From the NCBI RefSeq assembly GCF_030378065.1, contig NZ_JAUCGJ010000054.1, forward strand, positions 1 to 32,439: a DNA stretch of 32,439 bases. The letters run 5' to 3'. The number at the start of each line of letters is the position of its first letter. Positions within the stretch are counted from its first letter, which is position 1. The translations under genes were made by a program, and so were the position numbers. Below the pieces are notes generated by a model that did no database searches, had not been told where the DNA came from, and saw only the letters and a list, made by a program, of their open reading frames with translations. This document shows, one piece after another, positions 1-15,172 of this stretch. The DNA is from Candidatus Venteria ishoeyi (GTDB lineage: Bacteria > Pseudomonadota > Gammaproteobacteria > Beggiatoales > Beggiatoaceae).

Positions 1-108
1 TTGAGTTTACTTAAGCAGGATTCTTCTCATAAAACGGGTATTGCTAATAAACGACTTAAAGCTGCTCTTGATCAAGACTATCTCTATAAGATATTGACTA
101 TGCAGTAA
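1..108 (+). mobile_element. C-terminal end of an ISAs1-family-like transposase (partial)
   Basis: An open frame runs in from the window edge and stops with TAA at 106-108. Its 35 residues (core NKRLKAALDQDYLYKIL) resemble the C-terminus of ISAs1-type DDE transposases, where a leucine-rich helix is followed by a GI..KR.KA..D.DYL.K.L pattern. Only the tail is in the window, so the catalytic DDE residues cannot be checked. It lies directly beside a probable IS terminal repeat and a 5'-truncated gene, which is what an IS inserted into that gene would leave. Family assignment rests on recalled pattern, not on a search. Confidence 0.6.
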
Positions 109-128
109 ATTTGATGCGATTGCCCTAG
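109..128 (+). repeat. Probable terminal inverted repeat of the ISAs1-like element
   Basis: Immediately after the transposase stop, the bases read outward on the minus strand begin CTAGGGCAATCGCATCAAAT. This is like the ends I recall for ISAs1-family elements, and the position, a few bases after the stop codon, fits. The other end and the target duplication are outside the window, so the exact boundary (about 125-130) is not proven. Confidence 0.5.
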
Positions 129-829
129 GGCGCGGCATCCCCCCGCTACTGTGTGTCGTCCATGGCAATCATTGCGAACATGAACACATTGAACGGCATC
201 TTCTGGAACGCCTGAAAAAAAGAGATCTCTCTTTTCACAGCCTTCACGAAGCTGAACTGCAATTGGCGGGGGCGCGCAATCCGGAACAACTCCACGATGA
301 TTTATACAGCGAACTAAAAAGCAGTTTGCTTGCCGATTTCATGTCTAAATTGGGCAACGGCTCCCACCCGCTGGTACTCCACTTGACCGTTGTGCCCGGC
401 GACTGGTTTGAGCAGGGCGGCAAACATTGGTTGCAGGCTTTCGCTGAATTCTGGCGCGATAACGATGAATACCGCGCGGGTCGTCCCTGGCTGCTTATGA
501 TTTGCATCAAATACACTGGCAGCGGCCCGTTTGCCTGGTTCCAGCGTTGGCTGCGCACACGTCCTATCAATGCTTGCCTTGAATCACTGGAAAAAATCGG
601 CATTAAAGAATTTGACGAGCGTTTCGGCATACCCGGCGTGGTATTGCCGTGTTTGGGTAGCGTGCCCCATGAAGAAATCATCCGCTGGGTCGATCACAGC
701 GAAGTCGAAATTCTTTCCTACGGCCTGAATGTTGCCATCGTCAACCAACATGTGCGCGACCTGCCCGCTCACATGTCCATGTGCCAACTCGGTATGCGCT
801 TAACCAAGATTCTCAAAATCGCGGGCTGA
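128..829 (+). CDS. iSTAND-like conflict-system protein, 5' truncated by an IS
   Basis: The reading frame is open from about base 98 to the stop at 829, with no ATG near its beginning; TTG at 263 is only a nominal start. The coding signal starts right at the IS end. The residues after the junction (PPLLCVVHGNHCEHEHIERH, then LLERL) match the opening beta-strand and conserved H-G-x-x-x-E-x-H region I associate with the inactive STAND (iSTAND) P-loop-derived domain of bacterial conflict systems. A later beta-strand with aromatic and proline residues (RPWLLMICIKY) and a C-terminal helical part follow. There is no Walker A motif, as expected for an inactive P-loop fold. It sits 29 bases before a MoxR ATPase gene and is probably in the same operon. 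The N-terminal part, usually an effector-associated adaptor domain, is missing here and may lie left of the IS. Family call is inference. Confidence 0.6.
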   Translation, partial: GRGIPPLLCVVHGNHCEHEHIERHLLERLKKRDLSFHSLHEAELQLAGARNPEQLHDDLYSELKSSLLADFMSKLGNGSHPLVLHLTVVPGDWFEQGGKHWLQAFAEFWRDNDEYRAGRPWLLMICIKYTGSGPFAWFQRWLRTRPINACLESLEKIGIKEFDERFGIPGVVLPCLGSVPHEEIIRWVDHSEVEILSYGLNVAIVNQHVRDLPAHMSMCQLGMRLTKILKIAG

Positions 830-840
830 ATACACTTTTG

Positions 841-847
841 AAGGAGG
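841..847 (+). promoter_or_regulatory. Shine-Dalgarno AAGGAGG deciding the MoxR start
   Basis: A strong AAGGAGG lies 11 bases before ATG 859. It selects that ATG over in-frame codons further upstream that would overlap the iSTAND gene. Confidence 0.85.
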
Positions 848-858
848 AACCAAACACC

Positions 859-1980
859 ATGCCTTATCCCTACTACCCAAACCCCGGCGGTCGGCCTGCT
901 CAGAACCCGATTGTCGATTTGCCCGATCCTTGGGACGGGCGTGTTCTTGACCCCAAGCAGCGTGAATTGGAACTGGACCGTTACCACCCTGACCCGGAAT
1001 TGGTTCATGCCGTCAACAGTGCGCTGGTAATGCGCCGCCCACTGCTGCTCACCGGTGAAGCGGGTACGGGTAAGACGCGTCTAGCCGAGCATCTCGCCTG
1101 GCAGTTGGGACTCAAAGAAGCGCTCAAATTTGAGACTAAATCAGCCAGCAATTCCCGCGATCTGTTTTATCTTTACGATGCGGTGGGGCATTTCCGTGCG
1201 GTGCAAATGGACATCAAAGAAGGTGCAGGCGGCGATCCGCTGGAATACTTCAGTCTTAACCCGCTGGGACTGGCGATTCTACTATCACAGGAAAAGGCAA
1301 CCCTGGCGGCACGTCCCAAACTCTGCGAACTGCTGCAACGCGCCTTGGAACAACGCCAATTACCGGCCCACGACGGGCCGCGCCTAAGCGTCGTGCTGAT
1401 TGACGAAATCGACAAAGCCCCGCGTGATTTTCCCAATGATCTGCTCAATGAAATCGACGAAATGTACTTCCGCATTCCTGAACTGGTGCGAGAAATCGGC
1501 CCGCTTCCAGTAACCGCCAACCTTGCCATGCGACCGGTGGTGGTGATTACCAGCAACTCCGAAAAACACCTGCCAGAACCTTTCTTGCGCCGTTGCGTTT
1601 ACTACAACATCGCTTTCCCTGAAAAAGCACAAATGGGCAAAATCCTCACCGCTTACGCCAAAGACTTCAATTTGCCCGACAACATGCTCACAGACGCATT
1701 GAATTTATTCTACGCACTGCGCCGAGGCCGTTTGCGTAAAAAGCCCTCCACCGCCGAACTGATTGGCTGGCTGCATTTATTGCGAATGAGCTTTGACAAA
1801 GAAATCAATAATCCCGATCATGCCTTCCACCGCGCGGAACGCCCGCTGTTCGACAGCATCAACAAAACGGTTCAAACACTCAGCGCACTGGTCAAAGTGC
1901 GTGAAGACCGGGATGATGCCAAAGATGCTATTGAGCGCTGGAAACAAGGCGCTGCCGAAACGGGCAATGGAGATGCTTAA
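859..1980 (+). CDS. MoxR-family AAA+ ATPase
   Basis: A 373-residue AAA+ ATPase of the MoxR type. Walker A is GEAGTGKT at about residues 66-73. Walker B is VVLIDEIDKA with DE at about 182-183. Sensor 1 is TSN at about 231-233, and the arginine finger region FLRRC follows at about 242-246. The C-terminal helical lid occupies about 255-340. MoxR proteins are cytoplasmic chaperone-like remodelling ATPases that nearly always work with a vWA-domain partner. Here the downstream 1406-residue protein has a CoxE-like N-terminus and a vWA-like region, so it is the likely partner. The upstream neighbour is an iSTAND-like gene. The start at 859 is supported by AAGGAGG. Such MoxR/vWA/iSTAND neighbourhoods are known as ternary NTP-dependent conflict systems in multicellular bacteria; the function here is inferred from that. 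Confidence 0.9.
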   Translation: MPYPYYPNPGGRPAQNPIVDLPDPWDGRVLDPKQRELELDRYHPDPELVHAVNSALVMRRPLLLTGEAGTGKTRLAEHLAWQLGLKEALKFETKSASNSRDLFYLYDAVGHFRAVQMDIKEGAGGDPLEYFSLNPLGLAILLSQEKATLAARPKLCELLQRALEQRQLPAHDGPRLSVVLIDEIDKAPRDFPNDLLNEIDEMYFRIPELVREIGPLPVTANLAMRPVVVITSNSEKHLPEPFLRRCVYYNIAFPEKAQMGKILTAYAKDFNLPDNMLTDALNLFYALRRGRLRKKPSTAELIGWLHLLRMSFDKEINNPDHAFHRAERPLFDSINKTVQTLSALVKVREDRDDAKDAIERWKQGAAETGNGDA

Positions 1981-2045
1981 CATGAAGGTTTTTAGACGTA
2001 TCCTTTTTGTCCTTTTAAACAGCCCCAGGCCGGGATAAACAAGCG

Positions 2046-5000
2046 ATGTCCGCCTTCCCGCCCTACCGCCTTGCCGAACTCCAAAATTTTCTGGAATATC
2101 TGCGTGCGCAGGGTTATCCGGTCGGTTTGGGAGAACTCGACGCAGCGCACCGTTTGCTGCTCGGCTTGTATACGGCGGGTGGCTTGCCTGAGGCAGATAG
2201 CGACGCGCACTGGCGGGGTCTGCTGCGTCCCTTGCTCTGTCGTTCCCCGCAGCAACAACAGGATTTTGACGAGCATTACCAAAACTGGCGGGCGAGTTTG
2301 GTTAAAACCGGAGAAGCGGCGAAGAAAGCCCCTCAACAAACGCCCAAACCAGCCGCCCCACGCCGTTCCAGGCGCTTGCTTTTCGACCTCGCGGTGCTTG
2401 TCCTGGTGTTGTTATGCGGTTTGGGATTGCGGCTGAATCTCCCTATCACCCACGCTTGGCTGGACGGCAAATATGCACAGTATCTCCCGCTGCCGGAAGT
2501 TGATAAACCGAACATACACGACCGCATTACCGGCGATTTATTAGTCTCCACCCCGCCTGCGGTCAATATAAAACTGCAACTGCAATACCTGGACGGGCAA
2601 CGTCACTTGAGCGCCTACAGTGGCGAAACCATTCGCTATCTCAACCCCGGTCGCTGGCGGGTCACGTCACCTGCCGGGGAATACCCGGAAAAAAGCGCGG
2701 AAGTACAAATTCAAGCCGGCAGCCAACTCACCGCCCTGGCATTGCGTCTGGCACCGGAACCGCCCAAGGCCAGGCTGCTGGTTACGACCTTGCCGCCGAC
2801 CAGCGCCCAACTCGAACTGCGCCAGATGGCACAAAACCTTCGCCGCAATGCGCGCGCCGGGCAAACCATCGAATTACCTGCCGGGCGCTGGCAAGTGAGT
2901 ACGCATCCTGAAGGCTATCTGGCGGCAAGCAAAGAAACCACCCTGCAAGCCAGTCAGAAACACCGTTTGCAACTACCCCTGATTCTGAAACCACCGTCAC
3001 CTCCCGAACCCAAAAACTGGTGGCAGCGTTACCGTTATTGGCTGGGCGGCTTGGCTGCGTTGCTCCTGGTATGGCTCGGAATCGTTTTATTCCGGCGCAA
3101 CAAACTCAGCCGCCAACTCAGCTATGCCGGACCGGAACTTGCCCGCCTGCAACTCAGCGTTTCCGGCAAGCGCCTGTACCAGGGGCTTGCGCTGCAAGGA
3201 CTGGCGCAACAACTGCACCGTCACGTTCCCGGCGCAGCGGGGAATTTGGACGTGGTTGCAACCCTCAAACAGAGCCTGGAACAGCTCGGTCTGTTTAGCC
3301 CGGTTTACCATAACGCCCCCCACCGGCCCGAATACCTGGTTTTGGTGGAACGCCATTCCGGTATGGATCAACAGGCGCAACTGGTGGACAGTTTATTATT
3401 GCGCCTGCGCCGTGAAGGGGTGGTGCTGGATGCCTGGCATTTTCAGGGCAATCCGCGCTGGTGTTATCCCTATCCCAAACACGGCGTCAACCCGGAACGG
3501 TCGCACCTGGCCCCGGATTTTGCGCCCGATCCCCGCACCCCCTACGGCCTGGACGAACTTGCCGCCCATTACGAAGGCCGCCGTCTGCTGCTGTTCGGCA
3601 ACGGTCATGGCTTTGTCGAACACGGTCTGGCGGCAGCCTGGCTTGCGCGCCTCAGTCCGTGGTCGGAACGCGCCCTGTTCACCCTCGAACCCGCTGGTCA
3701 GTGGCGTTATTTGGAAAATGTCCTGGCGCAAACTGGCATGTTGATATATCCGGCAAGCGCCGACGGTCTCGGCCAGTTTCTCCACGCCCTTGACAGTGCC
3801 GCCCCGATGGCTGCCGAAGCCACGCTTGGCCACTACCCGGCTCTGCTCAACCAACGCCCGCGCCGCTGGCTGGAACGCATCCCGCCGACTGCCGGGGAGC
3901 GTGCCGAACTGCGTCAGCAACTGCATGTCTGGCTGGGGAACGAAGGTTTTATCTGGCTGGCGGCCTGCGCCATCTACCCCGAATTGCACTGGCCGTTGAC
4001 CCTGCACTGGGGCGAACGTCTCAAACTGCTGGATGAAGAACGTCTGGCAAAACTCGCCGTCCTGCCCTGGCTGCGTCATGCCTACCTGCCTGACTGGCTG
4101 CGCCGCGACCTCCTCAATGCCCTGCCCTGGCGTTTACGCCACGACCTGCGTGGCGTGTTCCAAACCCTGCTGCTGCGAAAACAGGGTGATGAAACCGTGC
4201 AAACCACGCTCGCAGATCCAAAACGCGCGCCGCAGCGAGGACGGCGCACAGATCAGGTCTGCCTGGGCTTTCTCGTGGGCAAACTGGGTCTGCCCCTGCC
4301 CGCCGCGCTGCTGCCTAAAAGTGATAGCGAAGGTAAACGCATGCTCAAACTCGGTGCAGCGATGCTGCTGCTGGGTGCGGCGGCGGCACTGTTCCACTTC
4401 AGCCCCTGGCGCGATGCCTTGCTGGACAAATGGGTTGAAGCCACAGCCCCGCACGGCGAAATACAGGCTATTGCCCGTCTCAAGCTCAACACCGTACCCG
4501 AGCAACTGCAACTCAGCCTCAAGCGCGGGGCGCAGGCGCTGGATGAAATACGCACAGTTAGCAACGGCGACAGCCTATGGCTGCGCGCCGGACAATACAG
4601 CTATCAGGCTCAGGCGGCGGGTTACCAAAACGCCAGTGGCAGCATCCGGCTTACAACAGAACAAAAAAGCATGACCCTGACTATTCAGCTTAAAGCGGAT
4701 AAAAAACCGGGCAGCGACGGCGTACCCGATAAAATAATCGACCTGGCCCGCCCCGCTTTCCGCGACACCCTCAAAGACGGTAGCCCCGGCCCGTTGATGC
4801 GCCCCATCAGCGCCGGCAGCTTCCTCATGGGCAGCCCGGACAAGGAATCAGGCCGTCAGGATGACGAAGGCCCGCAACACCGCATCACCCTCACCCAAGA
4901 CTTTGCCCTGGGCCAAAATGAAGTAAGTTTTGAGGAATACGATAAATTTGCCGAGGCCACCGGGCGGGACAAACCCGACGACCAAGGCTGGGGTCGGGGC

Positions 5001-6266
5001 AAACGTCCGGTCATTAATGTTTCCTGGGACAATGCCACAGCCTATGCCGCTTGGCTCAGCGACCAAACCAGGCAAACTTATGTATTGCCCACTGAAGCCC
5101 AGTGGGAATATGCCGCGCGGGCGGGCACCACAACAGCTTATTGGTGGGGTAATGAGGTCGGTCAGGCTAAAGCCAACTGTGATGGCTGCGGCAGCCTATG
5201 GGACGACAAACAAACTGCGCCAGTAGGTTCTTTTGATGCGAACCCTTTTGGTTTAAATGATACCTCCGGTAATGTTTGGGAATGGGCAGCAGACCGGTTT
5301 GGTGACTACAGCAGCGATGCACAAACTAACCCCGGTGGCCCAGACAAAGGCTCCATCCGTGTTATCCGTGGTGGGTCGTGGGGTAATACACCGCGCTTCG
5401 TGCGTTCCGCTTACCGCAACGTCAACGACCCGTCCTTCCGCAGCATCTTTGTTGGCTTCCGCCTCGCGAGGACTAACTCTTGGCCCTCGCCCATCGTGCC
5501 GCAGATGGTGAGTTTTGCGCAGGGCGTGACTTTTATGATGGGCAGTGAGCAGGGTGACAAGGATGAAAAATCACTGCACGATGTAACCCTTTCACCCTTT
5601 GAAATTGGAGCTTATGAAGTGACGAATGAAGAATATGTGCGGCTTTTGAATGCGGTGAAACAGCGCGGGCCGAAAGGCCAGGCGTGGTTTGAAACTAAAA
5701 CCGAGGATTCGCGTAGTCAAATTACAGGTGAAGCGGGTAAATACCAGGTTGAAGCGGGTTATGAAAAGCATCCAGTGGTGAATGTTTCTTGGTTCGGAGC
5801 ACAAGCCTATATTGAATGGCTGAACGAACAAACGGCTAAAGACTATCGCTTGCCTACCGAAGCGGAATGGGAATACGCGGCGCGAGGTGGAACAAAGACG
5901 GCGTATTGGTGGGGTGATGAAGCGTCGCACGATTATGCCAATTATGGTAAAGACGAATGTTGTGATGGGTTGGCGCAAGGTAAAGACCAATGGGTTGGGA
6001 CTGCACCGGTGGGTTCATTCGATGCTAATCTTTTTGGTTTATATGATACAGCGGGTAATGTGTATGAATGGACGCAGGACTGGTACGGTTCGGAGTATTA
6101 CAAGAACAGTCCCAAAGACAACCCCACAGGCCCAGACAAAGGCTCCATCCATGTTATCCGCGGTGGGTCGTGGAACGATACGCCGCGCGACGTGCGTTCC
6201 GCTGACCGCTACTTTAGCGACCCATCTGACCGCAACGGCAATGTTGGCTTCCGCCTCGCGAGGTAA
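2046..6266 (+). CDS. Three-TM MoxR-partner protein with PEGA-like, vWA-like and tandem FGE-sulfatase domains; DGR-type variable regions
   Basis: 1406 residues. Visible order: (1) residues 5-85, a helical region like the N-terminus of CoxE/vWA partners of MoxR; (2) TM 111-130; (3) two PEGA-like beta modules, about 165-235 and 242-315; (4) TM 331-349; (5) a Rossmann-like region from about 428 with VERHSGM where a vWA MIDAS (DxSxS) would be, so degenerate; (6) TM about 766-785; (7) a PEGA-like module about 810-885; (8) FGE-sulfatase domain 1 about 911-1143; (9) FGE domain 2 about 1152-1406. Basic residues flank the TMs on the predicted cytosolic sides, placing the vWA-like part inside and both FGE domains outside. 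Both FGE domains lack the catalytic cysteine pair expected after GGSW, so they should bind rather than oxidise. The last 45 residues of each have DGR-like hypervariability. The ATG at 2046 has only a weak ribosome site; a stop at 2016-2018 limits upstream extension. Partner of MoxR by inference. Confidence 0.85.
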   Translation: MSAFPPYRLAELQNFLEYLRAQGYPVGLGELDAAHRLLLGLYTAGGLPEADSDAHWRGLLRPLLCRSPQQQQDFDEHYQNWRASLVKTGEAAKKAPQQTPKPAAPRRSRRLLFDLAVLVLVLLCGLGLRLNLPITHAWLDGKYAQYLPLPEVDKPNIHDRITGDLLVSTPPAVNIKLQLQYLDGQRHLSAYSGETIRYLNPGRWRVTSPAGEYPEKSAEVQIQAGSQLTALALRLAPEPPKARLLVTTLPPTSAQLELRQMAQNLRRNARAGQTIELPAGRWQVSTHPEGYLAASKETTLQASQKHRLQLPLILKPPSPPEPKNWWQRYRYWLGGLAALLLVWLGIVLFRRNKLSRQLSYAGPELARLQLSVSGKRLYQGLALQGLAQQLHRHVPGAAGNLDVVATLKQSLEQLGLFSPVYHNAPHRPEYLVLVERHSGMDQQAQLVDSLLLRLRREGVVLDAWHFQGNPRWCYPYPKHGVNPERSHLAPDFAPDPRTPYGLDELAAHYEGRRLLLFGNGHGFVEHGLAAAWLARLSPWSERALFTLEPAGQWRYLENVLAQTGMLIYPASADGLGQFLHALDSAAPMAAEATLGHYPALLNQRPRRWLERIPPTAGERAELRQQLHVWLGNEGFIWLAACAIYPELHWPLTLHWGERLKLLDEERLAKLAVLPWLRHAYLPDWLRRDLLNALPWRLRHDLRGVFQTLLLRKQGDETVQTTLADPKRAPQRGRRTDQVCLGFLVGKLGLPLPAALLPKSDSEGKRMLKLGAAMLLLGAAAALFHFSPWRDALLDKWVEATAPHGEIQAIARLKLNTVPEQLQLSLKRGAQALDEIRTVSNGDSLWLRAGQYSYQAQAAGYQNASGSIRLTTEQKSMTLTIQLKADKKPGSDGVPDKIIDLARPAFRDTLKDGSPGPLMRPISAGSFLMGSPDKESGRQDDEGPQHRITLTQDFALGQNEVSFEEYDKFAEATGRDKPDDQGWGRGKRPVINVSWDNATAYAAWLSDQTRQTYVLPTEAQWEYAARAGTTTAYWWGNEVGQAKANCDGCGSLWDDKQTAPVGSFDANPFGLNDTSGNVWEWAADRFGDYSSDAQTNPGGPDKGSIRVIRGGSWGNTPRFVRSAYRNVNDPSFRSIFVGFRLARTNSWPSPIVPQMVSFAQGVTFMMGSEQGDKDEKSLHDVTLSPFEIGAYEVTNEEYVRLLNAVKQRGPKGQAWFETKTEDSRSQITGEAGKYQVEAGYEKHPVVNVSWFGAQAYIEWLNEQTAKDYRLPTEAEWEYAARGGTKTAYWWGDEASHDYANYGKDECCDGLAQGKDQWVGTAPVGSFDANLFGLYDTAGNVYEWTQDWYGSEYYKNSPKDNPTGPDKGSIHVIRGGSWNDTPRDVRSADRYFSDPSDRNGNVGFRLAR
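5337..5471 (+). repeat. DGR-like variable region 1 (end of FGE domain 1)
   Basis: This 135-bp segment aligns without gaps to 6129-6263 (offset 792 bases). I count 23 differences, of which 16 fall at codon positions 1 and 2 of just eleven codons. In this copy those codons are GGT, AAT, TTC, TAC, AAC, GTC, AAC, TTC, AGC, ATC and TTT. Almost all can be derived from AAC or AAT by changes at A only. The flanks are identical in both copies and the last ten bases, CCTCGCGAGG, are a perfect palindrome. This is the pattern of DGR variable regions written from an adenine-rich template repeat. Confidence 0.7.
6129..6263 (+). repeat. DGR-like variable region 2 (C-terminus of the protein)
   Basis: Counterpart of 5337-5471, ending at the last sense codon. 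Its eleven variable codons are AAC, GAT, GAC, GAC, TAC, TTT, AGC, GAC, AAC, GGC and AAT, again NNY and consistent with AAY in a template. A C-terminal position in a C-type-lectin-fold FGE domain is where known DGRs place their variable region. The invariant GC-rich end with palindrome CCTCGCGAGG would occupy the place of the initiation-of-mutagenic-homing site. Confidence 0.75.
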
Positions 6267-6702
6267 TCCTGAGCACTTTTACTCTTTTACCCTGAGTATT
6301 TAAAATGCTAAAGTCAGGCAGGATGTTGGTGCAGGTTTGTAAATGGAAGAAACGGTGCAGTGCGGGCGCGGCGTGCGATAGCCACTGCGCCAAGCGCGCT
6401 GTTTCGCGCGTAGCGCATCAGGTTTGTCCAGCTCTGTCGTACCTGTGCCGGTGGATTACCGGACGAAGAAACCCACGCCCCTTGCGTCTGGTAGCGAAAG
6501 CGAAGGCCGTCGGGGGTGTTTTTTTAATAAAAATCTGTCAAGTCTTTGCTCCGGCAATGCCATTCGAAGCTAACCTCATGCCCTATCAATGACTTAGCGC
6601 GGTATGAAAGTAATTTCCAGCATCTTTAGCACCGGGATGTTTACTTCAAACTCAGGTTATAATACATATCATCTTTGATGAGAAAACAAGGAGAAACAAT
6701 AA
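6267..6702. other. Intergenic stretch with a GC-rich block, no convincing gene
   Basis: Downstream of the variable region is a pyrimidine-rich tract (ACTTTTACTCTTTTACCCTG). A GC-rich block of about 180 bases (about 6345-6525) follows, containing the hairpin-capable GCGCGCTGTTTCGCGCG around 6397-6413. Then comes an AT-rich stretch leading to the next gene. A 95-codon open frame (6305-6592) has no ribosome site or recognisable domain and I do not call it. No reverse transcriptase, Avd or template repeat is visible here. The block may be a remnant or RNA element of the DGR module, but that is speculation. Confidence 0.4.
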
Positions 6703-8337
6703 ATGAACAAGCCCTTTTATTTAGCATTATTATGTTATTTATTATTTATTTCAGGGTGTTCTCTTGCGCCTAAGCAGTCTCCTGAACAGGTCGCAGCCAT
6801 TAAACCCGCCGGATTCACCGTGTTGGCGATTAATGATGTTTATCGCCTGGATAATCTGGCAAAAGTGCGCACGCTGCGCCAGCAATTAGAGCAACAAGGC
6901 GATGTGCTGTTGCTCCATGCCGGGGATTTTTTGTTTCCTTCTTTTTTGAGCCGTGAATTTAATGGCGCACAAATGATTGATGTGATGAACCAGCTTGATG
7001 GGGATGCCAGTGCAGAGGATGCGCGTTTATGGGTCACATTTGGCAATCATGAATTTGATAAAAGCCAAATGAAGCACCGCCAGATATTGCAAGATCGCAT
7101 TAGTGAGTCGCAATTTGGCTGGGTGTCCTCTAATGTAAGCTTTCATCCGCAAGCAGCTATTCAAGACCCGCATTTAACCGCCTCTAAAATCATGACGATT
7201 AATGGCATTCAAGTGGGTATTTTTGGGTTGACGATTAACAGCAAAATACCAGAATATGTCCAGCAAATTACTGCTCCTATCACAACGGCGCAAGCCATGA
7301 CACAGCAACTGCGGCAACAAGGCGCGCAAGTTGTGATTGCACTCACTCATTTGACGATGGCGCAGGATAAACAGTTATTGCAGCAACTGGGTGAGCACGG
7401 CCCTGATATTATTTTTGGTGGACATGAGCATAATCAACAAAGCGCGCAGGTGAATGGGCGTTATGTGCTCAAAGCGGATGCTGATGCCATTTCAGCAACA
7501 GTGGCAAAAATCAGCCTAGATGGGGCGGCGCTTAAGGTGGACTTTCAGTTCCAGTCATTGGCTGAAACTAAACCTGATAGTCTTGTTGTGCAGCGCATTG
7601 CCGATTGGAAAAGCAAGCATGAACAGCAATTTTGTGACAAAAACAACTTAAGTGCGCATTGTCTGCAAGCTCAATTAGGGCGCTCGCAGCTTGTGCTGAA
7701 AGCGGAAGAACTGGAAATTCGCCGTTTTGAAACGAATCTGGGTAGTTGGCTCATGGACTTGGCGGTGCAGGCTTATGCCGACCAGGGTGCGCAAATCGCT
7801 TTTATGAATTCAGGTTCCTTGCGGCTTAATCGTGATATTCCCGTTGATGAAATTATTACGCGCAAAACCCTTAATGAGTTATTTGCCTATCCTGCTAAGT
7901 TGGCGCTGATAAAAATCAAGGGGGCCACATTACAACGGGTGATTAACCGTGCTATTCAGGATTGGGCGGGTAATGGGCATTGGTTACAAATCAGTGGTTT
8001 TGCTTTTCGGCATAACCCGGAAACGAATACGGCTGATCAGCTCAGTTTGATTGAAGCTTCCGGGATCAGGCCGATTTCTCCTGATGAAACATTATTAGCC
8101 GTGGTGAATGATTTTTTACTCGATCCAGGCAAGGGTAATCAGGATGGTTATGATATGTTGTCAAGCAAGATGATTATTAACCCTGATGAGGACTGGCCGG
8201 ATTTACGCGAAAAAACCGCCACAGCCTTGCAGCAAGCGGGTGAAAAAGGTATTCAACCGGAAACCCTGGGGCGTATTTGTAATACGCAGCGCGCAGGGCC
8301 GTGTTTATTAGACACGGTTTATTGCCGTGTTTATTAG
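6703..8337 (+). CDS. Lipoprotein 5'-nucleotidase/UshA-like metallophosphatase
   Basis: 544 residues with a lipoprotein signal (lipobox ISGC, Cys19), so probably anchored facing the periplasm. The calcineurin-like metallophosphatase domain shows LAINDVYRLD (Asp45), GDFLF (about 74), GNHEFD (about 114-119), THLT (His215) and GGHEH (about 239-243), which together form the dinuclear metal site. The first motif has DVY where classical UshA-type enzymes have DxH, so one metal ligand differs. The C-terminal half, with FMNSGSLR and a LFAYPAKLALIKIKG segment, matches the 5'-nucleotidase C-terminal substrate-binding domain. Likely reaction: hydrolysis of nucleotides or related phosphoesters for scavenging. 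AAGGAG at 6688-6693 supports ATG 6703. The extreme C-terminus has been altered by a 26-bp tandem duplication. Substrate not determinable from sequence. Confidence 0.85.
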   Translation: MNKPFYLALLCYLLFISGCSLAPKQSPEQVAAIKPAGFTVLAINDVYRLDNLAKVRTLRQQLEQQGDVLLLHAGDFLFPSFLSREFNGAQMIDVMNQLDGDASAEDARLWVTFGNHEFDKSQMKHRQILQDRISESQFGWVSSNVSFHPQAAIQDPHLTASKIMTINGIQVGIFGLTINSKIPEYVQQITAPITTAQAMTQQLRQQGAQVVIALTHLTMAQDKQLLQQLGEHGPDIIFGGHEHNQQSAQVNGRYVLKADADAISATVAKISLDGAALKVDFQFQSLAETKPDSLVVQRIADWKSKHEQQFCDKNNLSAHCLQAQLGRSQLVLKAEELEIRRFETNLGSWLMDLAVQAYADQGAQIAFMNSGSLRLNRDIPVDEIITRKTLNELFAYPAKLALIKIKGATLQRVINRAIQDWAGNGHWLQISGFAFRHNPETNTADQLSLIEASGIRPISPDETLLAVVNDFLLDPGKGNQDGYDMLSSKMIINPDEDWPDLREKTATALQQAGEKGIQPETLGRICNTQRAGPCLLDTVYCRVY

Positions 8338-8349
8338 ATGTGGTTTATT
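8298..8349 (+). repeat. 26-bp tandem duplication across the nucleotidase stop
   Basis: Bases 8298-8323 and 8324-8349 are two adjacent copies of one 26-mer (GCCGTGTTTATTAGA plus a GGTTTATT end) with three mismatches. Because 26 is not a multiple of three, the second copy changes the frame. It replaces a predicted ending DVVYY by DTVYCRVY, with the stop at 8335-8337. Confidence 0.8.
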
Positions 8350-8497
8350 ATTGATTTAAAAAAGTAGAACTGCATGAGTAGTGATTTTTACACTATATTC
8401 CCTTTATGAACAGTAGTATAGTTGGTGCTGAATATCAGCATTTTTGGATGAAAAACCTTTTAATCAGGCGATTGCCTTAATAACCTGGAAAATATTA

Positions 8498-9334
8498 ATG
8501 AATGCTCGAAAAATACAGGATTTACTGAGATTATTTAATATGCTGCAAGGTAAAAAACTGCCTTTTGTTGTCATTATCCTGATTTTAGTTGTCAGCTTTT
8601 TTTTCGGGGATGGCGTATGGAAACGCTTTTTACCGGGAGAGCAGCAACCACAGGTGGTTGTTGATGTACCACTGGACAGCTTGCCGAAAACATCAAAAAG
8701 TTTTTCTCATGCTAAAAAAGTGCTGTATGAAAAAATTTATGAAGGTCATCCTTATACGTTTTACTGTAATTGTAAATTCACTTCCACCCGTAAAGTGTAT
8801 CTGGGCACCTGTAACGTCAAACCACGCAGTAATGAAAAACGTGCAAAACGCATTGAAGCGGAACATGTGTTTCCCGCTTATCATTTTGGGCAGCACCGTG
8901 CCTGCTGGCGGGAACAATTATGCACCGATAGCAAAGGTAAAAAATTCAAGGGGCGCTCATGTTGTGAAGACATCGATCCTGTGTTTAAGGTCGCGCACAA
9001 TGACTTGCATAACCTCTATCCTTCTGTGGGTGAAATCAATGGTGATCGCAGCAATTACCGCTGGGGCATGATCAGTGGTGAAAAACGCGCTTATGGGCAA
9101 TGTGATATTGAAGTGGATTCCAGCATTAAACGCGCAGAACCGCCGGAAAATGTGCGTGGTGATATTGCCCGTACTTATTTTTATATGGAACAAACTTATC
9201 GCCTGCAACTGTCAGATCAACAACGCCAGTTATTTAGTGCCTGGGACAAAATGGACCCGGTGGATGACTGGGAGCGTGAGCGTAATAAACGGATTGCCAA
9301 GGTGCAGGGGAATTTGAATCCTTTTATTAAATAA
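8498..9334 (+). CDS. Exported endonuclease I (EndA/Dns/NucM family)
   Basis: 279 residues from ATG 8498; ATG 8540 and a TTG at 8444 are alternatives and no ribosome site is decisive. An N-terminal hydrophobic segment (residues about 22-38 from this start) acts as a signal anchor, putting the enzyme in the periplasm or outside. The catalytic beta-beta-alpha metal motif is present as EAEHVFPAYHFG, with the family's second block NDLHNLYPSVGEINGDRSNY. Several cysteine pairs (CNCKF, SCCEDID) suggest disulfides, usual in periplasmic members. Such nucleases cut DNA and sometimes RNA non-specifically, for nutrition or handling of extracellular DNA. The next gene, 11 bases downstream on the same strand, encodes a DNA ligase that also has a signal peptide, so the two are probably co-transcribed. 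Confidence 0.88.
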   Translation: MNARKIQDLLRLFNMLQGKKLPFVVIILILVVSFFFGDGVWKRFLPGEQQPQVVVDVPLDSLPKTSKSFSHAKKVLYEKIYEGHPYTFYCNCKFTSTRKVYLGTCNVKPRSNEKRAKRIEAEHVFPAYHFGQHRACWREQLCTDSKGKKFKGRSCCEDIDPVFKVAHNDLHNLYPSVGEINGDRSNYRWGMISGEKRAYGQCDIEVDSSIKRAEPPENVRGDIARTYFYMEQTYRLQLSDQQRQLFSAWDKMDPVDDWERERNKRIAKVQGNLNPFIK

Positions 9335-9345
9335 CGGCAATAGCG

Positions 9346-10182
9346 ATGTTTTTTACAATGTATTTTCGCTGGAGTTTATTGTTATTCTGCTGTGCTCTGG
9401 GATTTGCCCAGGCCGCAGAAAAACCGGATTTGATGCATGGAAAAACCTATTCCAGTGCTATCAATCCCGATTTATATTGGGTCAGTGAAAAATTAGACGG
9501 CGTGCGTGCGCGTTGGGATGGCGACAAGCTGATTTCCAGAGGTGGGCAGGTGTTTGCCGCCCCGCCCTGGTTTAGCGCAGATTTTCCCGATGTAGCGCTG
9601 GATGGTGAATTGTGGATAAAACGCGGACATTATGCGCAAACCCTGTCGGTGGTGAGTCAGAAACAGGCGCATGAGGGCTGGAAAGAAATTAAGCTGATGG
9701 TGTTTGATTTGCCGAGACATAAAGGCAGTTTTACGCAACGCCTGCAAGTGTTATCACAAGTATTCCAGGCAAATACATCACCTTATCTGGCTTTAATCAA
9801 ACAGTTTCGGGTACAGGATGAAGCGGAATTGATGAAAAACCTGCAACAAGTCACCAGGCAAGGCGGCGAAGGTTTGATGCTGCATCATCAGGACGCCTTG
9901 TACATACAGGGGCGTACTGCTGATTTGCTGAAATTAAAACCAGTACAGGAAGGTGTCGCCATTGTGATTGATTACAAACCCGGTAAAGGGAAGTTTCAGG
10001 GCATGGTAGGTTCCTTAAAATTACGTGATAAACAGGGACGTGAATTTTATGTCGGTAGCGGTCTCAGTGACCAGCAAAGAAAACATGCGCCACCCATTTC
10101 CAGCATGGTGCGTTTTAAGTATCAGGGTTTAACAAAAAATGGTTTACCGCGTTTTCCGGTATTTTTAGAGATTGTTAAATAA
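9346..10182 (+). CDS. ligE: Periplasmic ATP-dependent DNA ligase (LigE type)
   Basis: 278 residues with an N-terminal signal peptide (hydrophobic run ending ...FAQAAEK). The nucleotidyltransferase motifs are in order: motif I SEKLDGVRARW with adenylated Lys49, motif III DGELW, motif IV GEGLMLH and motif V LKLKP. A C-terminal OB-fold half ends in FRPV-like strands. It has no extra domains, as in the minimal Lig E class found in Gram-negative bacteria. The signal peptide means it acts outside the cytoplasm, where ATP is scarce, a known puzzle of this class. Lig E proteins have been linked to uptake or extracellular DNA handling. ATG 9358 is an alternative start. Sitting directly after endonuclease I suggests a cut-and-join pair acting on external DNA. 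Confidence 0.88.
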   Translation: MFFTMYFRWSLLLFCCALGFAQAAEKPDLMHGKTYSSAINPDLYWVSEKLDGVRARWDGDKLISRGGQVFAAPPWFSADFPDVALDGELWIKRGHYAQTLSVVSQKQAHEGWKEIKLMVFDLPRHKGSFTQRLQVLSQVFQANTSPYLALIKQFRVQDEAELMKNLQQVTRQGGEGLMLHHQDALYIQGRTADLLKLKPVQEGVAIVIDYKPGKGKFQGMVGSLKLRDKQGREFYVGSGLSDQQRKHAPPISSMVRFKYQGLTKNGLPRFPVFLEIVK

Positions 10183-10186
10183 ATAC

Positions 10187-10216
10187 TTGACAATGACTAA
10201 GAACTTTTTAGATAAT
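10187..10216 (+). promoter_or_regulatory. Sigma-70 promoter of rpsT
   Basis: TTGACA (10187-10192) and GATAAT (10211-10216) are separated by 18 bases and lie about 50 bases before the rpsT start. Confidence 0.65.
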
Positions 10217-10269
10217 AGGAAATTGATCACAATTTTTTAATTAGTTAAGAATTCACAGGAGTCTTCACC

Positions 10270-10530
10270 TTGGCAAACTCTCCCCAAGCCAAAAAACGAG
10301 CGCGACAGGCTGAGACCCGTCGTTTGCATAATTCCAGTCAGCGTTCCACTTTGCGTACTGAAATCAAAAAAGTTGTTAGCGCAATTGAAAGCGGTGACAA
10401 AAGTAATGCTGAAGCAGCATATAAAGTTGCCGTACCCGTCATTGACCGGGCAGCATGCAAGGGGTTGATTCATCAGAATAAAGCCGCCAGACATAAAAGT
10501 CGTTTGAATAAACATATTCACGCGATGTAA
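10270..10530 (+). CDS. rpsT: 30S ribosomal protein S20
   Basis: 86 residues, the normal S20 length. The sequence begins with ANSPQAKKRARQAETRR, is rich in Lys and Arg, and ends KHIHAM. S20 binds 16S rRNA and helps assemble the small subunit. The start is TTG at 10270 behind CACAGGAG. A non-ATG start is also used by E. coli rpsT, where it takes part in autogenous translational control; the same is likely here. It has its own promoter and a strong terminator, so it is monocistronic. Confidence 0.97.
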   Translation: MANSPQAKKRARQAETRRLHNSSQRSTLRTEIKKVVSAIESGDKSNAEAAYKVAVPVIDRAACKGLIHQNKAARHKSRLNKHIHAM

Positions 10531-10531
10531 T

Positions 10532-10560
10532 AAAAAAAACCGGCTCAGGCCGGTTTTTTT
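10532..10560 (+). terminator. Rho-independent terminator of rpsT
   Basis: The stem AACCGGC/GCCGGTT (10538-10544 with 10549-10555, loop TCAG) is preceded by an A run and followed by seven T. Confidence 0.93.
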
Positions 10561-10612
10561 ATGCCCTTTTCTGGAAAAAGCTTGACATAATAATAACAGG
10601 ATTTAAGCTCTT

Positions 10613-10682
10613 TAAACCGTAAACCGTAAACCGTAAACCGTAAACCGTAAACCGTAAACCGTAAACCGTAAACCGTAAACCG
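10613..10682 (+). repeat. Ten perfect TAAACCG heptamers
   Basis: Seventy bases consist of exactly ten copies of TAAACCG and end 14 bases before the ATG at 10697. The unit gives a TAA in every frame, so the array is not translated. It occupies the place where the ribosome site and 5' leader should be. A TTGACA lies just upstream at 10582-10587. Confidence 0.97.
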
Positions 10683-10696
10683 CATTGGTGCATTTC

Positions 10697-11431
10697 ATGT
10701 CTAAATTCCGCACCTATTATCAAAAATTCAGTGCAAAATATCAGCGGTCATCCATACGATTAACCTTGAATAGCAGACGTGTCGAATTTGGCTTTTTTGC
10801 ATTTGCTTTGTGTTTGCAGTTTTTATTACCCGCACGATTGCCTGTTCCCCCGCAAAGTGATAATGCCTTACCTACACCGCCCGATGTCAGTTACTTATCT
10901 ATGCTCGGCTTGGGTGATAACACCTTTAGCGCACGCTTACTGATGTTGTGGTTACAAGCATTTGATATTCGCCATCAGCATAATTTCCAGGAATTTGATT
11001 ATTTATATTTGCGGCAGTGGTTAAGCCAGATTTTAGCATTGGATCCACACAGTCAGTATCCCTTATTGGCAGCAACCCGAATTTATGCGGAAGTCGCCGA
11101 TCCAGAGCGTCGCCGGATGATGCTTGGGTTTGTCTACCAGGCTTTTTTAGCGGCTCCCGAAAAACGTTGGCGGTGGTTAGCCGATGCTGTGGTTCAGGCC
11201 AAGCATCGCTTACAGGATAAAGTGCTGACTTTAAAATATGCTAAAGCACTGGCAGCGCATAGAGATGAAGGCCTGCCTTATGAAGTGACACATTTATATG
11301 CGCTGGCATTAATCGAGTTGGGGCAGGAACAAGAGGCTCGACAATATATGCATGATTTGCTGAAGAGATATCCGCAAATGGAGAATCAAGAGCGTTTGTA
11401 TATAGAATCTTTTTTAAATGGAAAAAAATAA
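10697..11431 (+). CDS. Membrane-anchored TPR-like protein of unknown function
   Basis: 244 residues from ATG 10697; TTG 10685 and GTG 10688 are in frame and nearer the heptamer array. A basic N-terminus is followed by one TM segment (about residues 30-46). A proline-rich linker and an alpha-helical region come next, with paired helices reminiscent of tetratricopeptide repeats (LYLRQWLSQILALDPHSQYP; THLYALALIELGQEQEARQY). I do not recognise a named family. By analogy with similar anchored TPR proteins it may be a scaffold, but nothing in the sequence identifies a partner. No Shine-Dalgarno is present. The heptamer array abuts the gene, and a perfect 16-bp inverted repeat follows the stop. Confidence 0.8.
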   Translation: MSKFRTYYQKFSAKYQRSSIRLTLNSRRVEFGFFAFALCLQFLLPARLPVPPQSDNALPTPPDVSYLSMLGLGDNTFSARLLMLWLQAFDIRHQHNFQEFDYLYLRQWLSQILALDPHSQYPLLAATRIYAEVADPERRRMMLGFVYQAFLAAPEKRWRWLADAVVQAKHRLQDKVLTLKYAKALAAHRDEGLPYEVTHLYALALIELGQEQEARQYMHDLLKRYPQMENQERLYIESFLNGKK

Positions 11432-11433
11432 AA

Positions 11434-11466
11434 AGACCTTCCAGGTTTTCAAAACCTGGAAGGTCT
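11434..11466 (+). terminator. Perfect 16-bp inverted repeat after the TPR-like gene
   Basis: AGACCTTCCAGGTTTT (11434-11449) is exactly complementary to 11451-11466 with a single base between. It starts three bases after the stop. It could terminate transcription, but no T run follows, so it may instead be a dispersed palindromic repeat. Confidence 0.6.
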
Positions 11467-11590
11467 AATAAGGCACAAGAATAAAATGCTGTTACCCGCG
11501 TGTTTATTTTCCATACACAAGGTTAAAATATTCGCCTTTCAGGCGAATAGATTTATCTCTAATATTTAACGGTAAAACTTAAAATATGGG

Positions 11591-11800
11591 TTTTAACGCT
11601 AACACCCCAAAGGGGTATTTTAATATAGCCTGGGGCAACGCCCCAGGGTAGAAAATGACACGTTTACGCCCTGAAAGGGCAGGTTAAAATGATGGCAATA
11701 TTTTAATTTGCCCTTTCAGGGCGTGAATGGCACGGATACAATTCCAGGGGTGTTACCCCTGGCTATATTAATGCACCCCGTTGGGGCTAAACAACAGGGC
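11591..11800. repeat. Long imperfect inverted repeat built of nested hairpins
   Basis: The region around 11695 is a large imperfect palindrome with arms of about 100 bases (11591-11690 and 11700-11797). Each arm holds smaller perfect hairpins: ACCCC/GGGGT (11604-11616), CCTGGGGC/GCCCCAGG (11629-11647), GCCCT/AGGGC (11668-11680), and mirror versions at 11710-11722, about 11742-11761 and about 11775-11787. A separate hairpin, TTCGCCT/AGGCGAA, lies at 11531-11547. The 11432-11870 stretch has no credible gene; a 71-codon frame at 11708-11923 merely reads through the palindromes. Confidence 0.8.
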
Positions 11801-11844
11801 TTGTCCGCCCTGTATCTCGGCTTTCAGCCACCAAACGCTTTAAC

Positions 11845-11866
11845 CCACCCGTCTTTTAGCGGGTGG
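11845..11866 (-). terminator. Hairpin after the BI-1 family gene
   Basis: CCACCCG/CGGGTGG with an 8-base loop lies five bases beyond the BI-1 stop on the minus strand. The following T content is poor, so termination is possible rather than certain. Confidence 0.45.
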
Positions 11867-11870
11867 TTGT

Positions 11871-12560
11871 TTAATCTTCGCCCCACAAGCCAAAAATCGC
11901 CAGCAGATGCACGAACATATTAAAAATATCCACATACAAAGCAACTGTTGCCATGATGTAGTTGGTTTCATGTCCGTTGACAATGTTACTGGTGTCATAC
12001 AACATGAAACCTGCCATCAGTAAAACCACGCCACCAGAAACCGCCAGTTGCAGACCAGGAATATTGAACAGCCATGCTGCAACCATACCCGCAAGCATTA
12101 CCAATAAACCCACAAACAGGAAACTGCTCAGATAGCTGAAATCCTTTTTGGTGGTCATGGCATAACCGGACAAACCCAGAAAAACCACCGCCGTGGTGCC
12201 AAAGGCCATAATAATCAGTTCATGACCATTGCTGAAGGTATTGATATACATATTCAGCATCGGTCCCAGGGTCATGCCCATGAAACCGGTTAAGGCAAAA
12301 ACGGAAGCCAGACCCCAGACGCTGTTACGCAGTTTGCTGGTCAGGAAAAACAAACCAAAAAAACCAACCAGAGTGATGATAAACCCTGGATGTGGCAGAT
12401 TAAATTTCATTGCCAGACCCGCAGTAAAGGCACTGAACAGCAAGGTCATGGACAACAACATATAGGTGTTGCGAATTAGTTTATTGGTGGCAAGCGTGGA
12501 TACTTCCTGGGTTTGCCCCATGCCTGCAACAACAGATTCGCTTCGGTTCAACTCGCTCAT
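11871..12560 (-). CDS. Bax inhibitor-1/YccA family membrane protein
   Basis: 229 residues with seven hydrophobic segments and the family's conserved C-terminal region (YDTSNIVNGHETNYIMATVA, then LYVDIFNMFVHLLAIFG). The length fits bacterial YccA/YbhL proteins, inner-membrane proteins of the BI-1/TMBIM superfamily. Members have been linked to FtsH modulation or pH-sensitive calcium leak. Which role applies here cannot be told. A good GAGGAG ribosome site sits about 12 bases before the ATG at 12560. The gene is flanked by a palindromic repeat cluster downstream. Confidence 0.92.
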   Translation of the reverse strand: MSELNRSESVVAGMGQTQEVSTLATNKLIRNTYMLLSMTLLFSAFTAGLAMKFNLPHPGFIITLVGFFGLFFLTSKLRNSVWGLASVFALTGFMGMTLGPMLNMYINTFSNGHELIIMAFGTTAVVFLGLSGYAMTTKKDFSYLSSFLFVGLLVMLAGMVAAWLFNIPGLQLAVSGGVVLLMAGFMLYDTSNIVNGHETNYIMATVALYVDIFNMFVHLLAIFGLWGED

Positions 12561-12717
12561 AAGCTTTGGTGTCTCCTCGTGAAAAAATTAATAAATTGGA
12601 ATAAATTTGATTATGGCATCACCTGTGTACAGGTTCAAGAGGTGTTAGCAAACCTTACCAAATGATCATTCTCAGAAGTTTCTCAGGCAATTGCCAGACC
12701 AGAAAATACCCGTACCT

Positions 12718-13323
12718 TTATAGATTCTGGCTGCAAGGCCATTCGTCCCACTGATTGGACTCCGGTTTTTTAACCGAAACCGATTCAAAATAATAGCTTT
12801 GATCGCGTTTAAATAACACTGTCTGATAATCTTTGCGATTACGAATTTCTCCTACAACCGGCAACTGATAGGCAATCTCCACCCGGCCCTGTACCCGAAT
12901 TTCTGCTTGTTTACCCATAAAGTCCTGGATATTCATTACTTTACTTTCTGTAATATGATTTTCCAGAATCTGGGTTTCCACCACCGATCCGGTTACCTGA
13001 TCCAGGACTGTACCCAGCATACCGGAAAGATCCAGGCCACCAAAACTTGTCATTGAGCTACTTTGTGATTGTTGCGTGGTAAACTGGCTGACCTCATGTT
13101 TGATTTGATCAGGTGTCAGATTTTTCTGAAAACACACTTCCAGTGAATGATTCAGCTTGGTTTCCGGTAAATTGCTGCTAATCATACCTGCCAGCACAAT
13201 TTGCTTATAGGCCACTGCTGCTACGATAATTGCTAATACACTCAGCATTAAATAGGTGGCAATTGGCTGCTTTTTAGGGTTGCGTTTTTTTCGTGTGGTT
13301 TTACTGCTTGTGGTTCTTGCCAA
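12718..13323 (-). CDS. Small single-pass membrane protein, unknown function
   Basis: 201 residues beginning with a very basic segment (ARTTSSKTTRKKRNPKKQ), one TM (about residues 22-44), and a probably periplasmic domain of about 155 residues. The start is TTG at 13323, supported by GGAG eight bases upstream. The gene begins 76 bases inside the 3' end of the cyclase gene in another frame, so translation is probably coupled. I recognise no family. The beta-rich C-terminal half (VQGRVEIAYQLPVVGEIRNR) and two cysteines are the only notable traits. A role with the cyclase is suggested only by the overlap. Confidence 0.75.
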   Translation of the reverse strand: MARTTSSKTTRKKRNPKKQPIATYLMLSVLAIIVAAVAYKQIVLAGMISSNLPETKLNHSLEVCFQKNLTPDQIKHEVSQFTTQQSQSSSMTSFGGLDLSGMLGTVLDQVTGSVVETQILENHITESKVMNIQDFMGKQAEIRVQGRVEIAYQLPVVGEIRNRKDYQTVLFKRDQSYYFESVSVKKPESNQWDEWPCSQNL

Positions 13324-15131
13324 GAGATTTTCTCCGGTTCTGATGTGTAAACAGGGTTTTTTTCGCTACAAATAACCTGATAAATCTTAATGGGTGCAAT
13401 TTTACCTTTTACCTGTATTGATTTCAGTGCCTCCAGGGTGATTTGTTGCTGCTCCAATTCTTCTGTAAAGTCTTGCATCGCCTGATAGGCATAATCTGAA
13501 ATCACGGTTACTTCTGGCTGTGCAGCACTGCATAAACGCGCACCCAGGTTTACATTATCACCTAAAATGGTGTAATCCATACGCTCTTCGCTGCCCATTG
13601 CGCCCATCACCATATCACCGCTATTAATGCCAATGCCAACACGAATATCCCACACCTGCTGCTTATTAAGTTCTTTAATTACCCGATGAATTTCACAGGC
13701 GCAAAGTATGGCATTTTTTACCATATCTTCACCTTGAAACACGGCAATCAATTCATCGCCGACAAACTTATCAATATCACCGTGATGTTTTTTAACCAGT
13801 TTAGCTTGTGCGCGTAAATAGGTATTTAACATGGAAATAACAGTTTCTGGCGTCACTTTTTCAGAAAATGCAGTAAAACCACGAATATCTGAAAATAACA
13901 CCGTGGCAAACCGGCGCTCACCGCCCAGTTTGACACCTTCCTGCCCTGCTTGTTTAATTGCAGCTAAGGTGCCACCGGAGACAAATTTTTGCAGGTGAAA
14001 TTTTTCCATCAAACCCTGGATCATTTCATTGACATTCTCTCCCAGCAGACTGATTTCATCGCGGCTATCCAAATGCTTTACCCGTTGACTGAAATCCCCT
14101 TCACCAACCGGGCGCACTACCTGGGCAATTTCCAGAATTGGGCGGGTCAGATGGCTGGAAAACCAGATGGCGCTAAGTACGGCAACCAATAACCCCAGGC
14201 AAAACCATAATAATAAAGAACGTAACATATCGCTAATTGTCAGATACGCTTTATCCGCTTCCAGCGTGGTAACAACTGCCCACGGCAGATGTGCCAGCAC
14301 TGCATAAGCACCCAGCATCTCTTTACCTTCCGGAGAGGTGAAAGGCGTGGCGCTGATCGCCTGGGTTTGTTGTCGCAGCAGTGCAGTCACATTGTGGGTA
14401 ATATCACCAGTTAAAGTCTTTCCGTATTGGGAGGCAAATAAAGTATTGCCCTGTCTATTGAGTAAATAAACCTGCCCAACCTGATTTAATTGCTGTTTAT
14501 TGATAATGCGTTCAATGTGGCTCAGATTAATACGCGCCACCAGCATTGCGGGCTTGCCGGATAAAGGGTTTTTTAACGGGTAATATAAATCCAGCAACCA
14601 GATATCGGCATCAGATAAATAATGTGGATTTTGATCAACATAAAAAGCGGCATCACCGATTGCCATCTGTACTTCAGCCAAGCGTTTACGGGCTTGTAAA
14701 GTGGGTGCTTTGCCTTTGGTAAATCGCTCTTTAGAGGCTTCTGCCTGTTGATAGGCAGTTTGCAGATGATTCTGCGCAATTAATATGGGGGGGAAATCAG
14801 CCACAGAAATTTGCAAAACGATAAAATCATCCAAACTGTGAATTGCACTTTCCAATAAAGCAATTTTTTCATCTACACCCAAATCAGGATTATCTACTGC
14901 ATTAGCGACTAATTGCAGTGTAGCGCGCCAGGTACGGGTAAATATATCATCAATTTCTGTGGCAGATTGCTGCGCGGCGTGAATCATGGTGTCATTCACT
15001 GCACTTTTCAGTTCATTCTGGGTGATGCTGATCATTGAATAACTGGAAAAAGCCAGGGGCAGCAAGGCTAAGGCCAATGAGAAAAAAATAACTTTTTTGC
15101 GTAATCCAGGTTTAATGAAGTAAGTTTTCAT
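13248..15131 (-). CDS. Membrane-bound class III adenylate/guanylate cyclase with Cache-like sensor and HAMP
   Basis: 627 residues. TM1 is at about 13-33, followed by a periplasmic Cache-like double domain of about 270 residues and TM2 at about 308-330. HAMP follows, with the SSHLTRPILEIAQVV and GEGDFSQRV segments. The catalytic domain lies at about 420-580. Metal-binding aspartates are in FSDIRGFTAFS and GDELIAVF. The Lys in DKFVGDE favours ATP. The DYTILGDNVNLGARL block supplies the transition-state Asn and Arg. Ligand sensing outside should control cAMP production inside. The C-terminal 45 residues after the catalytic domain are not typical. The gene is followed, with 76 bases of overlap, by a small membrane protein and preceded 41 bases upstream by the acyltransferase gene. 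Confidence 0.9.
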   Translation of the reverse strand: MKTYFIKPGLRKKVIFFSLALALLPLAFSSYSMISITQNELKSAVNDTMIHAAQQSATEIDDIFTRTWRATLQLVANAVDNPDLGVDEKIALLESAIHSLDDFIVLQISVADFPPILIAQNHLQTAYQQAEASKERFTKGKAPTLQARKRLAEVQMAIGDAAFYVDQNPHYLSDADIWLLDLYYPLKNPLSGKPAMLVARINLSHIERIINKQQLNQVGQVYLLNRQGNTLFASQYGKTLTGDITHNVTALLRQQTQAISATPFTSPEGKEMLGAYAVLAHLPWAVVTTLEADKAYLTISDMLRSLLLWFCLGLLVAVLSAIWFSSHLTRPILEIAQVVRPVGEGDFSQRVKHLDSRDEISLLGENVNEMIQGLMEKFHLQKFVSGGTLAAIKQAGQEGVKLGGERRFATVLFSDIRGFTAFSEKVTPETVISMLNTYLRAQAKLVKKHHGDIDKFVGDELIAVFQGEDMVKNAILCACEIHRVIKELNKQQVWDIRVGIGINSGDMVMGAMGSEERMDYTILGDNVNLGARLCSAAQPEVTVISDYAYQAMQDFTEELEQQQITLEALKSIQVKGKIAPIKIYQVICSEKNPVYTSEPEKISWQEPQAVKPHEKNATLKSSQLPPI

Positions 15132-15172
15132 AAGCTTATTCTAACTTAAACAAGGCCGAGCAAAAAGTAATA

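Follow-up and report, generated by a model that had tools for sequence, protein, structure and literature searches.

Organization of the window and of the P0001 gene

The window analysed in this study is a stretch of 32,439 nucleotides from Candidatus Venteria ishoeyi, which makes up the entire contig C69 of a 4.41 Mb genome (115 contigs, 98.8% complete). At its start (Table 1) lies one end of a multicopy insertion element, which abuts, and probably truncates, the gene upstream of the MoxR-like ATPase. The copy of this element in C35 contains a 418-aa frame, presumably a transposase, with the same terminal peptide as the window copy. An array of the heptamer TAAACCG was also observed at positions 10613-10689 of the window.

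Table 1. Coordinates of the features discussed in the text; positions refer to the window unless another locus and contig are given.
Feature	Location	Strand	Remarks
Multicopy insertion-element end	1-127	+	96-100% identical stretches in C35, C42, C88, C33 and C57
iSTAND-like gene fragment	98-826	+	its homologues have an additional N-terminal adapter/effector part
MoxR-like AAA ATPase	859-1980	+	AAA_5, 39.2 bits (cut-off 22); directly upstream of the P0001 gene
Target/sensor gene P0001	2046-6266	+	ORF of 1406 aa
vWA-like module (P0001 residues 426-587)	3321-3806	+	AlphaFold model, mean pLDDT 62
FGE domain 1 of P0001	4803-5471	+	PF03781, 184 bits; TvpA 2y3c sequence match, E 5e-16
FGE domain 2 of P0001	5499-6263	+	PF03781, 208 bits; TvpA 2y3c sequence match, E 4e-17
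Variable region 1 (VR1), internal	5337-5471	+	tip of FGE domain 1
Variable region 2 (VR2), 3' end of gene	6129-6263	+	tip of FGE domain 2
21-nt end of VR1	5451-5471	+	putative IMH site; same letters in both copies
21-nt end of VR2	6243-6263	+	second copy, putative IMH site; same letters in both copies
Complete C10 DGR	L023 (C10), 3062-15300		with three caspase-FGE targets
C27 template	L175 (C27), 9254-9374		four targets on C27, C40 and C5
RT-Cas1 fusion protein	L033 (C86), 1276-4263	-	995 aa
Second two-FGE protein	L026 (C93), 605-4261	-	1218 aa; one FGE internal, one before a 49-aa tail
Two adjacent FGE genes	L028 (C9), 2051-2857 and 3020-3847	-

The iSTAND-like fragment has no Pfam match of its own; its homologues occupy the corresponding operon position in the relatives L136 (bDLD3), L137 (EAD2 + iSTAND) and L143 (caspase + iSTAND). 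The gene order in these three loci is that of the window, with longer upstream genes (encoding a death-like domain, EAD2-iSTAND and caspase-iSTAND, respectively). No upstream iSTAND-type gene was detected in L133, L134, L135 and L144, some of which are short contigs, and L135 alone among these four has a homologue of the AAA gene. In the window, the ORF of the AAA gene opens at position 781, and an AAGGAGG resembling a ribosome site precedes the ATG at 859. The AAA homologue adjoins the same vWA-like module in four of the seven relatives' stretches (L135, L136, L137 and L143).

Part of the N-terminal half of P0001 models as vWA-like, the model being a middling one. The best VIA-align rows for the module were vWA/I domains (Z up to 9.9, rmsd 3.7, 135 residues), the Foldseek search returned nothing under E 0.001 (best row, a NorQD chain at 5e-3), and the module had no match by sequence. 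In the relatives, it is found in the same ORF as a single FGE domain (L137, L143), leucine-rich repeats (L135), a caspase (L136), CHASE2 (L133) or vWA/DUF11 modules (L134). As in ternary systems, a MoxR-like AAA gene adjoins the target; the inspection for a third component, which covered the upstream fragment, identified no VMAP gene.

The C-terminal part of P0001 consists of tandem FGE-sulfatase domains, whose PF03781 and 2y3c sequence matches identify them as C-type-lectin-fold domains of the kind that host DGR variable regions. One contig search with this FGE pair revealed 30 relatives, including Candidatus Parabeggiatoa, Thiomargarita and other Thiotrichaceae, and the organism itself is probably related to filamentous sulfur bacteria. 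A fold model of the tandem pair, built on three sequences, had a pLDDT of 40.5, and no inference was drawn from it.

Sequence pattern of the variable-region pair

An earlier note on this DNA had described VR1 and VR2 as DGR-type variable regions, one in each tandem FGE domain of a single protein and one of them internal. The placement of both copies, including the internal one, is supported by the present analysis. The gapless alignment over 135 bp with 23 differences was reproduced exactly, and the interspersed codons (CGC, GTG CGT TCC GCT and GAC) are the same in both copies, as had been noted. The last 21 nt are also shared. A repeat finder run on the window reported the pair as 5328-5471 / 6120-6263 (144 bp at 82%).

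The differences are distributed over the three codon positions as 9/8/6, and 12 codons replace the amino acid, with four being silent. All 12 amino-acid-changing codons are NNY in both VR1 and VR2, a pattern that is weak on its own because 34 of the 45 codons of the tract are NNY in both copies anyway. The codons reported earlier as compatible with AAY correspond to 11 of these 12, the twelfth being CGT/CAT at 5358/6150. The derivation of both copies from a single shared AAY template held less well, since four third-position C/T differences (CGT/CGC, GGT/AAC, GTC/TTT and TCC/TCT) do not fit one such template and need added drift.

The similarity of the two tracts exceeds chance. Third-position identity between VR1 and VR2 is 0.87 in the tract versus 0.39 over the 173 aligned codons in the rest of both domains, and among codons specifying the same amino acid, 29 of 33 are identical in the tract versus 48 of 89 outside it (Fisher p = 6e-4). 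The tract reaches to the final codon of the domain, AGG, which is also where the match between the C10 template and its targets stops. In the first FGE tree, based on 47 domains that passed length and motif filters after removal of duplicates, the two domains of P0001 were placed apart. Their reading as non-sister domains was given up after a clade test without the long-branched rows L169_201, L170_726 and L164_125 (44 of 47 rows), in which the tree with both window domains together scored better and was not rejected (p-AU 0.688). Thus, the pair may have arisen by a shared duplication followed by local conversion.

DGRs of the genome, templates and age of the proposed writing

The earlier note had called for a search of the genome for a DGR reverse transcriptase (RT) and Avd, and both were found. 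The RVT_1 profile hit four places, in C86, C45, C10 and C27. The C86 protein was rejected as a DGR component because it is an RT-Cas1 fusion (with a part that we take, from motifs only, to be Cas6), and the C45 protein because it is a truncated group II maturase. The other two are DGRs, each with an RT, an Avd or Avd-like protein, a template and three or four targets. In the C10 DGR, Avd scores 91.5 bits against NF033474 (cut-off 80), and the template differs from its own three targets at 16-18 of 30-32 adenines and at 0-1 of 84-86 other positions. The Avd-like protein of the C27 DGR is below threshold (30 bits against a cut-off of 40), two of its four targets lie on other contigs (C40 and C5), and one target is an Lcl_C protein. 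The mismatches between its template and targets amount to 17-27 of 39 adenines and 0-1 of 81-82 other positions.

The template matching the 135-bp pair, which had also been proposed, was not found. Genome searches with VR1 and with an adenine-restored template, in which AAC had been typed in at the variable codons, returned the pair itself, the C10 template and short weak matches, a result that is not final for an assembly of this completeness. Likewise, neither an RT nor a template was found near the P0001 gene. Only the restored query returned the C10 template, with 78% identity over 105 nt and the codon registers in agreement. The pair itself differs from the C10 template at 16-19 of 31 adenines and at 22-23 of 86 other positions; therefore, the C10 template in its present form is not the writer of the pair. 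The C27 template was rejected as well, as it belongs to another target family.

Among 42 genomes of the family, the own genome included, the restored template matched ten at E values up to 0.001; an order-level search spanned the same 42 genomes and added nothing, and no second genome of the genus was returned. Thirteen matches lie outside the own genome. Eight are situated within 0.8 kb of an RT (L125, L126, L128, L129, L138, L139, L140 and L142). Where these overlap an FGE-tip match, the frames concerned are short (43-108 aa); the L138 match overlaps none. Three others are tips of FGE genes (L131, L132 and L141), and the remaining two, in L127 and L130, are short copies for which the fetched stretch shows no RT. 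The nearest match is a template in G027 (80% over 95 nt), and the cognate template of the window pair is not among the 13. Outside cellular genomes, two exact motifs of the window had no match in viral contigs, and the restored template had none in phages; in plasmids it matched two cyanobacterial plasmids at ~75%.

The matches of the restored template to real templates arise partly by construction. A register test escapes this circularity because it uses only the positions at which VR1 and VR2 differ. The alignment of ten templates with the two tips of P0001 spans 27 codons and needs no gaps; eight of the templates are found beside an RT in the stretches fetched (the own C10 template, L125, L126, L128, L129, L139, L140 and L142), the remaining two being those of L127 and L130. 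With the analyst-chosen threshold of AA- in at least half of the templates, 10 of the 11 amino-acid-changing codons fall at template AA- positions, versus 2 of the 16 other codons (Fisher p = 8e-5, the codons being assumed independent). When one or two templates were left out, in three runs, p ranged from 1e-5 to 3e-4 under the same assumption. The exception among the variable codons corresponds to AGG in five templates, to AAC in four and to AAG in one. The variable codons of the pair are thereby found in the AAY register of real templates, as in a DGR target.

For comparison of the age of the writing, the window pair and seven other pairs were scored over 34 codons starting from GGSW. The window pair shows 11 nonsynonymous and three synonymous codons, with five third-position differences. 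The three pairs written by C10 have 11-12 nonsynonymous and 0-1 synonymous codons and two third-position differences each, and the C9 pair, the C93 pair and two C93-C2 pairs have 10-16, 0 and 0-1, respectively. In both synonymous codons and third-position differences, the window pair is thus above all seven others. It looks DGR-written with ordinary drift added, and its silent differences suggest that it was written some time ago and has since drifted, which argues against recent writing.

The C93 protein represents a cleaner double case. In the terminal 75 codons of its two FGE domains, every difference is a replacement and none is silent, and its VR pair has 12 nonsynonymous and no synonymous differences over the 34 codons. 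The C93 gene also lies behind an AAA_5 gene. Its VR family is shared by C2, with a third-position identity of 0.96 in the VR versus 0.48 in the rest of the domain; therefore, at least one further template seems to be a recent writer. The tips of the two C9 genes differ by 16 replacements and no silent change over 34 codons. No template for the C93/C2 or C9 sets was found in the assembly, which, with that of C69, makes three template-less VR sets. Among the loci compared, which do not amount to a census, ORFs with two complete FGE ends occur in the window, C93, L127 and L057. That of L127 (G032) is a 1396-aa frame at 8499-12686 on the minus strand, and a short template-like copy downstream matches its C-terminal tip (14 adenine and five other mismatches); no RT was seen on that piece of the contig.

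Interpretation and comparison with known systems

Based on these results, P0001 probably carries a DGR-type double variable region, which is likely orphaned. The reading of P0001 as a DGR target, advanced in the earlier note, is partly supported, by the VR-like pair, the tandem FGE domains and the RT and Avd proteins of the genome, but a matching template has so far not been found. The evidence in favour consists of the identity limited to the tract, the codon register, the likeness to the pairs written by C10, the presence of two DGRs in the genome, the C93 double case and published precedent, together with the remote targets of the C27 DGR on other contigs. Counting against it are the lack of a template in the assembly, the four third-position C/T differences, a clade test compatible with sister domains and the middling vWA model.

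The gene order and the vWA-like module fit a MoxR-vWA ternary conflict system, in which P0001 would probably act as the sensor. In the proposed mechanism, the tip of each FGE domain would be a DGR variable region, and mutagenic retrohoming from a single template family, with AAY at the variable codons, would have rewritten both tips, so that one polypeptide would present two ligand-binding faces that vary separately. The writing template would be neither that of C10 nor that of C27, and the searches of the assembly did not find it. The silent drift would make an older, orphaned pair likelier than one that is currently being rewritten.

The pair might nevertheless still be written by a template and RT located outside the assembly, in a gap or on an unbinned plasmid or phage. 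This is possible, although rather improbable: the C93/C2 and C9 sets also have no template, yet show no synonymous differences, and at least one template missing from the assembly therefore seems active of late, but the silent differences of the window pair exceed those of every other pair compared. The lack of matches in viral contigs and phages, and the two distant ones in plasmids, speak against a mobile source as far as sequenced elements go; an unsequenced element could still carry it. An earlier form of the C10 template, since diverged, is a very improbable writer of both regions. The similarity of the restored template and the shared register point to it, but the non-adenine differences from the C10 template are far more numerous than those of the three C10 targets, and the G027 template is equally close. 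Moreover, no C10-type template matching the constant codons of the window was found in the 42 family genomes searched.

The pattern could also have formed with no DGR at all, if gene conversion had acted between the domains and selection had then favoured new residues at the ligand contacts. The tract is homologous inside one gene, the clade test permits sister domains, and the loops of FGE domains are natural contact sites. However, a match with templates is not expected from conversion, while the variable codons of P0001 coincide position by position with template AA- codons, and the same genome has other DGRs with matching targets, as well as the cleaner C93 case. This explanation is therefore considered quite unlikely. 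A wider scheme can be put forward, tentatively and as an unlikely one: this lineage would keep several sets of FGE sensors (C69, C93/C2 and C9), two of them in two-faced proteins, whose writing templates would act in trans from outside the assembled chromosome. Diversification would then come and go with a mobile element, and among relatives the iSTAND/MoxR/vWA-like chassis would exchange its DGR-FGE sensors for other modules, such as leucine-rich repeats, caspase or CHASE2. Templates located on a mobile element would make the ability to diversify immune-like sensors transferable. In any case, the assembly, although nearly complete, provides examples of VR sets for which it contains no template.

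Among known systems, the TvpA protein of Treponema denticola has one variable domain. By sequence match, P0001 resembles it (PDB 2y3c) in the FGE-type C-type-lectin fold of a DGR variable protein. The C10 DGR of the own genome is similar in having FGE targets in the same codon register with a 3' boundary at the same AGG, but differs in the single FGE domain and caspase N-terminus of each target, the presence of a template and the near absence of non-adenine mismatches (0-1). Phage DGRs with two variable regions have been described, these being in separate target proteins as far as the available text shows (PMC11792537).

According to the available text of Kaur et al. (2020; PMC7159879), gammaproteobacterial VMAP ternary systems include vWA-FGS fusions with DGRs, the templates being nearby or elsewhere in the genome. 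P0001 is like these systems in the combination of a MoxR AAA protein with a putative vWA module fused to probably diversified FGS and in its likely DGR association. Unlike the systems described there, P0001 has two FGE domains, no identified VMAP gene and an upstream gene cut by an insertion-element end. The closest likeness in domain layout is offered by Thiohalocapsa PB-PSB1, in which the DGR 4 and DGR 5 targets combine a vWA domain with three tandem CLec domains (Dore et al. 2024; PMC10907252). In the text available from that paper, three VRs are named for DGR 4, VRs inside one target differ in activity, and degenerate loci without machinery occur. P0001 shares with DGR 4 and DGR 5, as described there, several tandem CLec domains per sensor, a putative vWA N-terminal module and a probable ternary system with a MoxR ATPase, but it has two such domains instead of three, its upstream gene is an iSTAND-like fragment, and its gene has no RT or template found nearby, whereas the Thiohalocapsa target is part of a DGR locus. 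Two VRs in one polypeptide are thus uncommon but already in print, and what is new here, within a literature search that left most subscription journals outside, is a probable conflict-system sensor with two variable domains, in a family other than the purple sulfur bacteria for which tandem CLec targets were described.
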